From a virus: a stretch of 42,726 bases of DNA. The position numbers were made by a program, and so were the translations under genes. Under the pieces are notes generated by a model. The model saw only the letters and a program-made list of their open reading frames with translations, did not search any database and was not told the DNA's origin. The stretch is from IMG/VR virus record IMGVR_UViG_3300036770_002393, positions 1 to 42,726 of that record; one strand, 5' to 3'. Shown here piece by piece: positions 4,251 to 9,806 of the stretch. Each line of letters begins with the position of its first letter. The first letter of the stretch is position 1.

Positions 4251-4285
4251 GCAAGCCGTCACCAGCGGCTAGAGGAGATCGGATC

Positions 4286-5601: not shown

Positions 5602-6189
5602 ATGAGTCAGCAGAGCGTACAACAGATCGGACAGGGGACACAAGAGGGCGGACAGGGAACGCGGGAATGGCCCGGCGCATTGCCCGAGCGCGGTATCTAT
5701 GCGGCCTGCCTTGCAAGCTACAATTCCGGCATGCTCCATGGCTGCTGGATCGATGTCGAGGGCAAAGACGCGGACGACATCCAGAGCGAGATCGCGGCCA
5801 TGCTGGAAGCCAGCCCGGAACCCGGCGCGGAAGAGTGGGCGATCCACGATTACGCGGGCATCCCGTCATCGTTCGGGGAATACCCCGATCTTAAGAAGAT
5901 CGTCCAGTGGGTGGAGATGAGCGAACAACACGGGGAAGCCTGGGCGGCTTATGTGGACGCGGCAGGGGAACATTACGCCACCCCGGAAGGGTTCAGCGAC
6001 GCATTCCTCGGTGAGTACGATAGCGCGGAGGATTACGCGGCGGAACTTTACGAGGGATATCTTGCCGACCTGCCGGACAACATCAAGTATTGCATGGATT
6101 GGGGGCAGGTCGTTCAGTGCCTCGACTGCAATGATGGGATCATCTTTGCGGAACGTGGCGGCTCCTGCTTTGTTTTTTCCAACTGCTAA
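5602..6189 (+). CDS. ardA: ArdA antirestriction protein (DNA mimic)
   Basis: A 195-residue, very acidic protein matching ArdA along its length: IYAACLASYNSGMLHGCWID at 31-50, EEWAIHDYAGI, a central acidic helical part with EHGEAWAAYV, and GEYDSAEDYAAELYEG in the third domain. ArdA forms an elongated dimer that imitates bent B-DNA and blocks type I restriction-modification enzymes. The ATG at 5602 has AGGAGGATCGG upstream. Odd feature: the N-terminal about 25 residues contain two copies of the dispersed GGACAGGG repeat, translated as IGQGT and GGQGT, ahead of the usual ArdA start; they look like an insertion-derived extension. Confidence 0.92.
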   Translation: MSQQSVQQIGQGTQEGGQGTREWPGALPERGIYAACLASYNSGMLHGCWIDVEGKDADDIQSEIAAMLEASPEPGAEEWAIHDYAGIPSSFGEYPDLKKIVQWVEMSEQHGEAWAAYVDAAGEHYATPEGFSDAFLGEYDSAEDYAAELYEGYLADLPDNIKYCMDWGQVVQCLDCNDGIIFAERGGSCFVFSNC

Positions 6190-6214: not shown

Positions 6215-6508
6215 ATGAGCACGAAGCACACGCCCGGCCCTTGGATAGTGCGCCACTTGGCCGGATTCCCCCTAATGATCGCCACCGCCCCTGATGCGGA
6301 CGGCTTTGGAAAACCCGTTGCGGACTGTTCCCGTCATCGCCTGCCGGGCGAGGCCCTAGCCAACGCCCGCCTAATCGCGGCGGCTCCCGACCTGCTGGAA
6401 ATTGCCAAAGCATACCGCAACCTCTTGCGCACTATGGCACACACAGACGGAGACATCGCCACCTTCCACCATGTAGAAGCCGCCATCGCGCAAGCGGAGG
6501 GCCGGTAA
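6215..6508 (+). CDS. Phage protein of the HTPGPW...ANARLIAAAPDLLE family
   Basis: A 97-residue protein with an N-terminal HTPGPWIV motif and a central ANARLIAAAPDLLEIA helix. This combination is very common in small proteins of unknown function in phages and prophages of many Gram-negative bacteria. GAGGAGACC precedes the ATG. It follows ardA by 25 bases and is probably in the same transcript. No enzymatic motif is visible. Confidence 0.82.
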   Translation: MSTKHTPGPWIVRHLAGFPLMIATAPDADGFGKPVADCSRHRLPGEALANARLIAAAPDLLEIAKAYRNLLRTMAHTDGDIATFHHVEAAIAQAEGR

Positions 6509-6509
6509 C

Positions 6510-6644
6510 ATGTGGCAGTTAATCAATCTCGAAACTGGCGAGGTGTACTCCACGCATCGAAACTACTGGTACGCGGTCGGCGCAATGAATAAGCGGATCA
6601 AGGCTGGGGTCCTGCCTGACATTCTAGCGATTGTCACACCATAA
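6510..6644 (+). CDS. Hypothetical protein, 44 aa
   Basis: A small protein (begins MWQLINLETGEVYS) starting one base after the stop of the preceding gene, so probably coupled to it. The start MWQLINLETGEVYSTHRNYW resembles short beta-hairpin proteins common in phages. Its stop lies at the 5' edge of the hammerhead ribozyme, so ribosomes finishing here would sit on stem I. No function is recognised. Confidence 0.6.
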   Translation: MWQLINLETGEVYSTHRNYWYAVGAMNKRIKAGVLPDILAIVTP

Positions 6645-6698
6645 CCCGCTGACGAGTCCCTTGCCACGGGACGAAACGGGGAGCGATCCCCGTCCGGG
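6645..6698 (+). ncRNA. Type I hammerhead self-cleaving ribozyme
   Basis: All conserved hammerhead elements are present in order: stem I 5' strand CCCG (6645-6648); core CTGACGA (6649-6655); stem II GTCCC/GGGAC (6656-6660, 6668-6672) with loop TTGCCAC and the conserved first G-C pair; core GAAA (6673-6676); stem III ACGGGG/CCCCGT (6676-6681, 6688-6693) with loop AGCGAT and the conserved A-U pair; cleavage nucleotide C at 6694; stem I 3' strand CGGG (6695-6698). Stems II and III are closed by loops and stem I is open, so it is type I. Cleavage after 6694 would leave a new 5' end 35 bases before the GTG of the next gene. Confidence 0.92.
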
Positions 6699-6729
6699 AA
6701 TAGGCCCGACACCACAGGAGGATCGGATC

Positions 6730-6981
6730 GTGAAAGTCTACACAGTAAACGACGAGGGGCGGCGGCAAATCTTGGGGTATCTCCGTGCACACTTGGCCGG
6801 GGCCGCGCTTGAACGGCTTGATACGCCCGAAGCGCAAGCGGCCTGGTTCAGTGATGCGGAAGATAACGCCACAGCGGACGGCGGCGGCTTCGAGATTACC
6901 GCCCGATTTAGCCACACAGGCAACCCGATCCCGGTCACGTTTGGGCCGGAATGCTTCGACGTTGAGACCATCGAAGAGTAA
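6730..6981 (+). CDS. Hypothetical acidic protein, 83 aa
   Basis: A GTG-started gene with AGGAGGATCGG just upstream, the module's usual SD. The protein is acidic (KVYTVNDEGRRQILGYL..., then AAWFSDAEDNA and FGPECFDVETIEE) with a helix followed by a probable beta-sheet half (GFEITARFSHTG). Similar short acidic proteins occur in mobile elements, but I do not recognise a named family. It is the gene directly downstream of the hammerhead ribozyme, so its mRNA would begin with a ribozyme-cut 5'-hydroxyl end. Its small size, acidity and neighbours would suit an inhibitor of a defence system, which is speculation. Confidence 0.7.
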   Translation: MKVYTVNDEGRRQILGYLRAHLAGAALERLDTPEAQAAWFSDAEDNATADGGGFEITARFSHTGNPIPVTFGPECFDVETIEE

Positions 6982-7894: not shown

Positions 7895-9037
7895 ATGAGC
7901 TACTTAAAGAAGCCCAAAGGCCGGGCGACGTGGTACATCATTGACAAGGCGCGAGGTACCAGCGTGTCCACCGGGACAGGGAACAAGCGGGAAGCGGAGG
8001 CGGCGCGGCGGGAGTATGACCGCCGCCAAGCGGGACAGGGGGGAGGCCGGGCGCGTGACAACCCCGAGATCGCGGAGGTCTGGGGGCTGTATGCTTCCCT
8101 TGTCAAGGGGGCCATCACTGAGCGCACCCTAACCGGGACTCACATCTATCGTTGGAACCGTTTCCAGCGGTGGGTTACGTCTCGGGGCGGGGTATCCCGC
8201 ATGCGTGACGTGACGGTCGGTGTATGCAATGAATACCGGGCGTGGCTGCACGACCGGGCGGGGGCACTGGAGGCCGGACAGAGAACGGAACAGCAAGCGG
8301 CCTATTTGCGCCGTGCTGCCATGCGGGGCTTCAATGCCGACAAGCGAACCCTCCAAGCTATTTGGAACGTTCTGATCGAATCTGAACGATTCTCCGGGGT
8401 GAATCCCTGGGTGCGGGTGCGCGGGGTGGATAAGAGCGTGGCCGGGGAGGAGTCCGAATCCAGCATGGTGCTGTCGCCCCGGCAAGTGTCCGCCCTGTTT
8501 GCCGCGCTGCAATCGGAGGGGTCGTTGCTACGGGTGGCGCAGTGCGGGTATTACCTCGGGGCGCGGCGCGGGGAAATTCTCGGGCTGCGGTGGGAACATG
8601 TCAACTTCGATGCGGGAACCGTGCGCCTCGGTGGAAAGCAGGGGCGGTATCGGACAATCGAGGTGCCCCGCGTGTTTCTGGAAGTGCTGAGGGCGGACAG
8701 GGGCGCACCGTTGGGCTGGGTGGTTAAGGCTCCGTCCGATGAACGGGGAACCAAGGGGCTGCGGTGGAACTGGAACCGTCAATGGCGGCGGGTCTGTCGG
8801 TCGCTGGGGTTGCTCAAGCCATGCGGGGATGCCATCGGGGTGCACGATTTGCGCCACAGTTACGCGACACACCTTGTCGAGCAAGGCGTGGGCGCACAGG
8901 ACGTGCAACGCCTCCTCGGGCATTCTACGCTGCGCATGACGGAACGATACACCCACTTGACAAACCAGCGACGGGTGACGGACGTGCTGGATCGGTTGGT
9001 GCCGGGGGTCTCGGAAGCGGGACAGGGAGCACTCTAG
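7895..9037 (+). CDS. int: Tyrosine recombinase (phage integrase)
   Basis: A 380-residue site-specific recombinase. From the start at 7895 the catalytic residues are Arg224 (in GARRGEILGLRW), His317/Arg320 (HDLRHS), His343 (GHST) and the nucleophile Tyr352 (MTERYTHL). A SAM-like core-binding domain precedes this, and the N-terminus (YLKKPKGRATWYI) resembles arm-binding domains. The ATG at 7895 is chosen because GGAGG lies eight bases upstream; earlier ATG and GTG codons are too close. It catalyses integration and excision at the attP just downstream. Copies of the GGACAGGG repeat lie inside the gene, one forming the final residues (EAGQGAL). Confidence 0.95.
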   Translation: MSYLKKPKGRATWYIIDKARGTSVSTGTGNKREAEAARREYDRRQAGQGGGRARDNPEIAEVWGLYASLVKGAITERTLTGTHIYRWNRFQRWVTSRGGVSRMRDVTVGVCNEYRAWLHDRAGALEAGQRTEQQAAYLRRAAMRGFNADKRTLQAIWNVLIESERFSGVNPWVRVRGVDKSVAGEESESSMVLSPRQVSALFAALQSEGSLLRVAQCGYYLGARRGEILGLRWEHVNFDAGTVRLGGKQGRYRTIEVPRVFLEVLRADRGAPLGWVVKAPSDERGTKGLRWNWNRQWRRVCRSLGLLKPCGDAIGVHDLRHSYATHLVEQGVGAQDVQRLLGHSTLRMTERYTHLTNQRRVTDVLDRLVPGVSEAGQGAL

Positions 9038-9114: not shown

Positions 9115-9164
9115 TGGTGGGCGATACTGGACTCGAACCAGTGGCCTCCGCCGTGTGAAGACGG
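9115..9164 (-). other. Partial tRNA-Val(CAC), 3' half: probable attP core
   Basis: On the minus strand the sequence folds as the 3' part of a tRNA: anticodon arm CCGTC-TTCACAC-GGCGG with anticodon CAC (Val), variable region AGGCC, T arm ACTGG-TTCGAGT-CCAGT, acceptor strand ATCGCCC, discriminator A and CCA. The D arm and 5' acceptor strand are missing upstream, so it is not a functional gene. Next to an integrase, this is the classic attP layout in which integration restores the host tRNA. The identity core probably spans from the anticodon loop to CCA or through the terminator. Confidence 0.88.
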
Positions 9165-9273
9165 CGCGGACAGGGAAAGCACACTTTCGCACACGTCCGA
9201 GCCAATGAAAAGGGGTACAACAAGCCGGACAGGGAACGCCACGGTGCTTGATTGTGTTCCCTGCTGACGGGGA

Positions 9274-9725: not shown

Positions 9726-9751
9726 GGAGTTGCGTGTGTCAAAAATTGTGC

Positions 9752-9780
9752 TTGAATTGTAGCGTCAATGGTGCTAATAT
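9752..9780 (+). promoter_or_regulatory. Strong promoter for cro-like gene and replication block
   Basis: TTGAAT, 17 bases, TAATAT. Transcription would start near 9787 and read into the Cro-like gene and the recombination/replication operon. The -10 box is the centre of the perfect palindrome at 9769-9786, so repressor binding would shut it off. The spacer shares GTCAATGGTGCTA with the promoter at 41851-41879. Confidence 0.75.
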
Positions 9781-9786
9781 GCACCA
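9769..9786. promoter_or_regulatory. Perfect 18-bp operator palindrome
   Basis: TGGTGC-TAATAT-GCACCA: two 6-bp arms around the -10 hexamer of the rightward promoter. The position and symmetry are those of a lambda-like repressor/Cro operator. Confidence 0.72.
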
Positions 9787-9806
9787 ACCTTACGGGAGAT
9801 TCGCAT

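Follow-up and report, generated by a model that had tools for sequence, protein, structure and literature searches.

A type I hammerhead ribozyme directly behind a stop codon in a phage gene run and its possible role in mRNA 3'-end formation

Hammerhead ribozymes have been described between the genes of phages and prophages, including around ardA, with their role left open (Perreault 2011, PMC3088659), and a 2023 paper (PMC10085705) from a group with earlier reports on gene associations still termed the reason for them unknown. The question why phages carry so many of them dates from 2011. Here, the IMG/VR viral record IMGVR_UViG_3300036770_002393 was analysed over its whole length of 42,726 nucleotides (the window). 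Its plus strand carries the integrase, ArdA and small genes, and its minus strand the portal, terminase, head and internal virion genes. Between co-oriented genes on the plus strand lies a complete type I hammerhead with all conserved positions present (Table 1). As argued below from comparison with its relatives, this ribozyme would probably (at roughly 60%) cut the polycistronic phage mRNA at 6694/6695 and serve mainly in forming the 3' end of the upstream mRNA.

Table 1. Positions of the hammerhead, its parts and the neighbouring features in the window
Feature	Position	Strand	Evidence or detail
ardA-like anti-restriction gene	5602..6189	+	Pfam PF07275, E 6.6e-29; phrog_2059
97-aa gene, phrog_1273, without assigned function	6215..6508	+	
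44-codon ORF, TAA 6642-6644 immediately 5' of the ribozyme	6510..6644	+	sequence
Type I hammerhead ribozyme	6645..6698	+	RF00163, 26.9 bits; 0/400 random windows
Stem I 5' strand CCCG	6645..6648	+	fold and sequence
Core CUGACGA (C3-A9), CTGACGA in DNA	6649..6655	+	RF00163 match and sequence
Stem II hairpin GUCCC-UUGCCAC-GGGAC	6656..6672	+	5 bp; strands 6656-6660 / 6668-6672
Core GAA (G12-A14)	6673..6675	+	sequence
Stem III hairpin, GCGA loop	6676..6693	+	7 bp; strands ACGGGGA 6676-6682 / TCCCCGT 6687-6693
Predicted cleavage site, 3' of C17 (6694)	6694..6695	+	GUC triplet in sequence and hammerhead chemistry
Stem I 3' strand CGGG, opening bases of the predicted downstream product	6695..6698	+	fold and sequence; 4 bp
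Alternative hairpin CGGG-AAUAGG-CCCG	6695..6708	+	rivals stem I before cleavage
Possible contact GGC with loop II GCC 6663-6665	6703..6705	+	3 bp; p about 0.26, weak
Shine-Dalgarno AGGAGG of the downstream gene	6716..6721	+	sequence
83-aa acidic protein gene, GTG start at 6730	6730..6981	+	
Tyrosine integrase gene, end of the gene run	7898..9037	+	Pfam PF00589, E 2.2e-22

The first-pass annotation had described a complete type I hammerhead, and every element that it named was found in its place. The core agrees with the Rfam model RF00163 (CTGACGA at 6649-6655, GAAA at 6673-6676, UC at 6693-6694), stem I is open, and the three stems consist of standard pairs throughout; the lengths given for stems I and II were correct, and stem III has 7 bp where 6 had been claimed. 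The covariance search proposed there as a check matched RF00163 to 6645-6698 from end to end, as the sole notable Rfam match in the window, with E values of 3.9e-6 (single family, whole record), 0.00016 (401 nt) and 0.017 (window against all 4227 families). Folded alone, the 54-mer adopted exactly the hammerhead structure, with an ordinary energy (z -1.5), and cutting 3' of C17, as predicted here, is established hammerhead chemistry.

At 26.9 bits, the match nevertheless stays under the Rfam gathering score (34 bits). This score was exceeded in only 2 of the 20 phage records examined, of which 19 were picked for carrying hammerheads; it is conservative, most phage type I hammerheads fall under it, and we treat the shortfall found here as a matter of threshold and not as a structural defect. 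Besides the score, the ribozyme, which shares with RF00163 the core, the three stems, the GUC triplet and the open stem I, differs in its 4-bp stem I without a closed internal loop and in a possible 3-bp contact of loop II. A pseudoknot between loop II and the 3' tail has been described in other hammerheads (Perreault 2011, PMC3088659); as a general rule it was rejected, with only 23 of 252 cases at p<=0.05, mainly from GC-rich phages. It is improbable that the motif is an inactive relic or a product of chance, since the invariant core and all three stems are intact, none of 400 composition-matched windows from a first-order Markov model had a hammerhead whose stems reached 4/5/6 bp, and the motif has the family-typical stop position and flanking bases described below, although the low score, the ordinary energy of the isolated fold and the short stem I, which is outcompeted in longer RNA, would fit such an origin. 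The window hammerhead is an ordinary, well-formed instance of its kind.

The surroundings also agreed with the earlier description, which had placed the ribozyme on the coding strand between a stop ending at 6644 and the GTG at 6730, with ArdA upstream, the integrase downstream and the predicted cut 35 nt before the small acidic gene; the 31 nt between the end of the ribozyme and this GTG include the AGGAGG. The 44-codon ORF has an SD-like GGAGGG before its ATG, and its GC content by codon position (0.52/0.39/0.66) is similar to that of its neighbours. Homology searches revealed no relative of its 44-aa product or of the 83-aa acidic protein, and with no near DNA match to the window the phage is a singleton. 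On the plus strand of the operon, no sigma-70-like promoter and no convincing terminator were found, which is weak evidence, as a sigma-70 model may not suit the host. A leader AGGAG(G)ATCGG is common to several genes of the operon just 5' of the start codon (at 4273, 5589, 6716, 7022 and 7333). Adjoining the integrase, a tRNA-like fragment at 9126-9190 on the minus strand scores 21.8 bits, under the cut-off, and has a good T-loop; it is possibly the attachment site.

The first-pass annotation had emphasized an anti-defence operon, and in this its reading was only partly supported: the hammerhead and its context stood, and the emphasis did not. RF00163 was found in none of 50 other ArdA-encoding viral records, a type I search of 80 ArdA loci was negative, the type II model (RF02276) matched only 2 of 49 such records, and besides the window only two hammerhead loci encode ArdA. 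A specific link to ardA, which has been reported for some members and is not a defining feature, was thus not seen; as a specific partner ArdA was rejected, and it is one passenger among many. In the ArdA records with type II hammerheads, these flank ardA and other genes alike and abut their stops. Arrays of four and seven type II hammerheads surround ardA in L208 (2837-4304) and L188 (4032-7234), with the stop overlapping the first base or two of most hammerheads. Among known systems, the triple array flanking ardA in Agrobacterium tumefaciens is likewise intergenic, on the coding strand and near ardA; for this and other prophage arrays cleavage has been shown, whereas the window has a single copy two genes downstream of ardA (Perreault 2011, PMC3088659). 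In the same study prophage arrays cleaved in vitro, one of them in E. coli, and 4 of 18 consensus hammerheads were inactive.

A stem-II-specific pattern was found in 56 stretches of viral contigs, whereas bacterial and archaeal genomes totalling 257 billion bases yielded only four. Almost every viral match was a complete, intergenic hammerhead. Many phages had more than one, e.g., L025 with eight in 6.6 kb and L112 with seven; several copies flanking genes are frequent and not universal, and the 42.7-kb record has one. The relatives were dereplicated into clusters before the position tests. With naive ORF calls (upstream ORFs of at least 30 codons) and clusters that are only partly independent when from related phages, the stop of the upstream ORF ended at ribozyme base 1 or one base inside in 48 of 164 type I clusters of the discovery set and in 36 of 87 of a held-out set with a different stem II sequence, against baselines of about 1.3 and 0.8, respectively, per position further upstream. 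Of the hammerheads, 46% had a stop within -12 to +3, as compared with 5.4% of positions drawn at random from those strands. Although type II motifs open with a strand of stem II and not of stem I, their 148 clusters had 120 upstream-ORF stops 2-8 nt before G12, with about 10 expected, a count to which one cluster may contribute more than one stop. The window hammerhead, whose first base directly follows the TAA, is placed as is typical of the family.

Because the stops abut the motif and the free gap lies almost all on its downstream side (the median share of free intergenic space upstream of the motif was 0.11 for type I and 0.09 for type II), the motif is tied to the end of the upstream gene. 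The earlier description was framed by the downstream gene; the relatives hug the upstream stop and not the downstream Shine-Dalgarno sequence. Stem I was preferentially preceded by A and followed by AA, as in the window, whatever the stop position; since the A is favoured even without an abutting stop, the exact phasing may partly be a sharing of letters. The UGA of the core was considered as the usual stop codon and rejected, with about 18 clear clusters; in L060, L100, L109, L131 and others it does appear to serve as the stop of the upstream gene. The text of Perreault 2011 (PMC3088659) contains no mention of stop codons, and none of stop-codon phasing or of the type III hairpin described below was found in the open-access papers searched.

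Type III hammerheads served as a natural control. After cleavage, the upstream product of types I and II still ends in the stem III hairpin, whereas in type III the cut splits stem III and this end would be unstructured. Type III motifs showed no stop abutment. Instead, a GC-rich hairpin lay flush upstream in 30 of 54 type III clusters (26 of 44 contigs) vs 16 of 397 of types I and II together (11 of 250 and 5 of 147, respectively), a contrast with a Fisher p of 9e-21 in a test that was conceived after the first type III sequences had been viewed. The stop mostly ended 4-11 nt before this hairpin, which was followed by a T tract in only 3 of 30 cases. Whichever of the three topologies is considered, the RNA predicted upstream of the cut therefore consists of a stop, a hairpin, a short tail and a cyclic phosphate, and it is mainly this common end for which a role in 3'-end formation is preferred; the extra hairpin of type III could then be explained by the splitting of its own stem III.

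Some hammerheads also lie flush behind tRNA 3' ends, which is a supporting context for this role. Type I hammerheads within a few nucleotides of tRNA 3' ends were observed in phage tRNA clusters of L144 (579), L150 (1432) and L162 (521), and another near a tRNA 3' end in such a cluster of L064 (minus strand, about 9750-9797). The theta (HDV-like) ribozymes of gut phages (PMC10879173) are also small, self-cleaving, located in phage transcripts and tRNA-linked, and differ from the window hammerhead in fold and in their tRNA-recoding context.

In another reading, the ribozyme would act mainly on the next gene, whose ribosome-binding site it would release or restructure. In L040, L053 and L103, the Shine-Dalgarno sequence (GGGAG or AGGAGG) coincides with the 3' strand of stem I, and cleavage would release it at the start of the downstream RNA, an arrangement that resembles engineered hammerhead switches. 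Such sites were located at 9598-11408 in L040, in L053 and at 1521 in L103, with four apiece in L040 and L053. However, only these three phages were clear, and unmasking was rejected as a general role; the motif tracks the upstream stop, and in the window the Shine-Dalgarno sequence lies outside the ribozyme, which makes control of the downstream gene an unlikely main function. Among known systems, the HHphage hammerhead of the haloarchaeal viruses HF1/HF2 is comparable: it belongs to an early operon, precedes a start codon by 13 nt and has a 5' end mapped close to its cut. It differs from the window hammerhead in having a variant core, which structurally resembles one dependent on high salt (Perreault 2011, PMC3088659).

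A further point is the fate of the short stem I. The CGGG at 6695-6698 can pair either with the CCCG at 6645-6648, forming stem I, or with the CCCG at 6705-6708. In nested folds stem I was favoured for transcripts ending at about 6698-6706 and lost once 6708 was made, and in longer transcripts the alternative hairpin outcompeted it, as judged by equilibrium folding in which tertiary contacts are ignored. Cleavage would therefore have to be co-transcriptional or aided by tertiary contacts. Short hairpins that re-use the 3' strand of stem I were enriched in the family, occurring in 37 of 167 contigs vs about 10 in shuffled, swapped and distal controls (mirror control, 57 vs 17); taken singly, the hairpin of the window was not significant. 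Such a hairpin could block religation or protect the 5'-OH end.

The same observations would suit a ribozyme that is gated by ribosomes and reports translation of the 44-codon ORF. A ribosome at the stop would cover stem I and the core, the CGGG would pair with the downstream CCCG and the mRNA would stay intact, whereas with the ORF untranslated the ribozyme would fold and cut. That stop and stem I abut exactly, here and in many relatives, that only a narrow range of transcript ends in the window favours stem I and that the competing hairpin is enriched are all consistent with gating. We nevertheless regard it as rather unlikely, if less so than the other alternatives: in 150 type I motifs, the addition of 25 nt of real 3' flank flipped stem I in 37 cases and that of shuffled flank in 39, by which the idea of stem I as a general thermodynamic switch was also rejected, type III motifs lack stop abutment, and hammerheads also occur behind tRNAs, where no ribosome terminates.

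Formation of the upstream 3' end is therefore the preferred reading. Speaking against it are the loss of stem I to the alternative hairpin in longer transcripts, the weak loop II contact and the inactive consensus hammerheads of the 2011 study. From the structure, the position and the family-wide pattern, all observed, we infer the cleavage, its timing and its effect on stability as follows. The cut at 6694/6695 would occur during or shortly after transcription. Its main product would be the 3' end for the genes up to the 44-codon ORF, consisting of the stop, stems II and III and a 2',3'-cyclic phosphate one base 3' of the GC-rich stem III hairpin, the predicted structure at this terminus. The second product would be a separate mRNA, from the 83-aa gene to the integrase, with a 5'-OH end that could fold into the alternative hairpin. 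Both new ends would be expected to resist exonucleolytic and 5'-phosphate-dependent decay, and the ribozyme would thereby replace a terminator and promoter, or an RNase site, between the two gene groups.

Phage hammerheads are already known, and the interesting part is the family-wide positional rule. That types I and II lie flush behind the stop, and that type III alone has an extra upstream hairpin, suggests that it is the 3' end of the upstream mRNA which is selected, and makes the role testable. Extended to the family, the reading is more tentative: all three topologies might be dedicated 3'-end formers, type III with an added hairpin, and the window hammerhead one instance in which the alternative hairpin may lock or gate cleavage. 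The hundreds of relatives suggest that phages form hairpin-capped mRNA ends right behind their genes.
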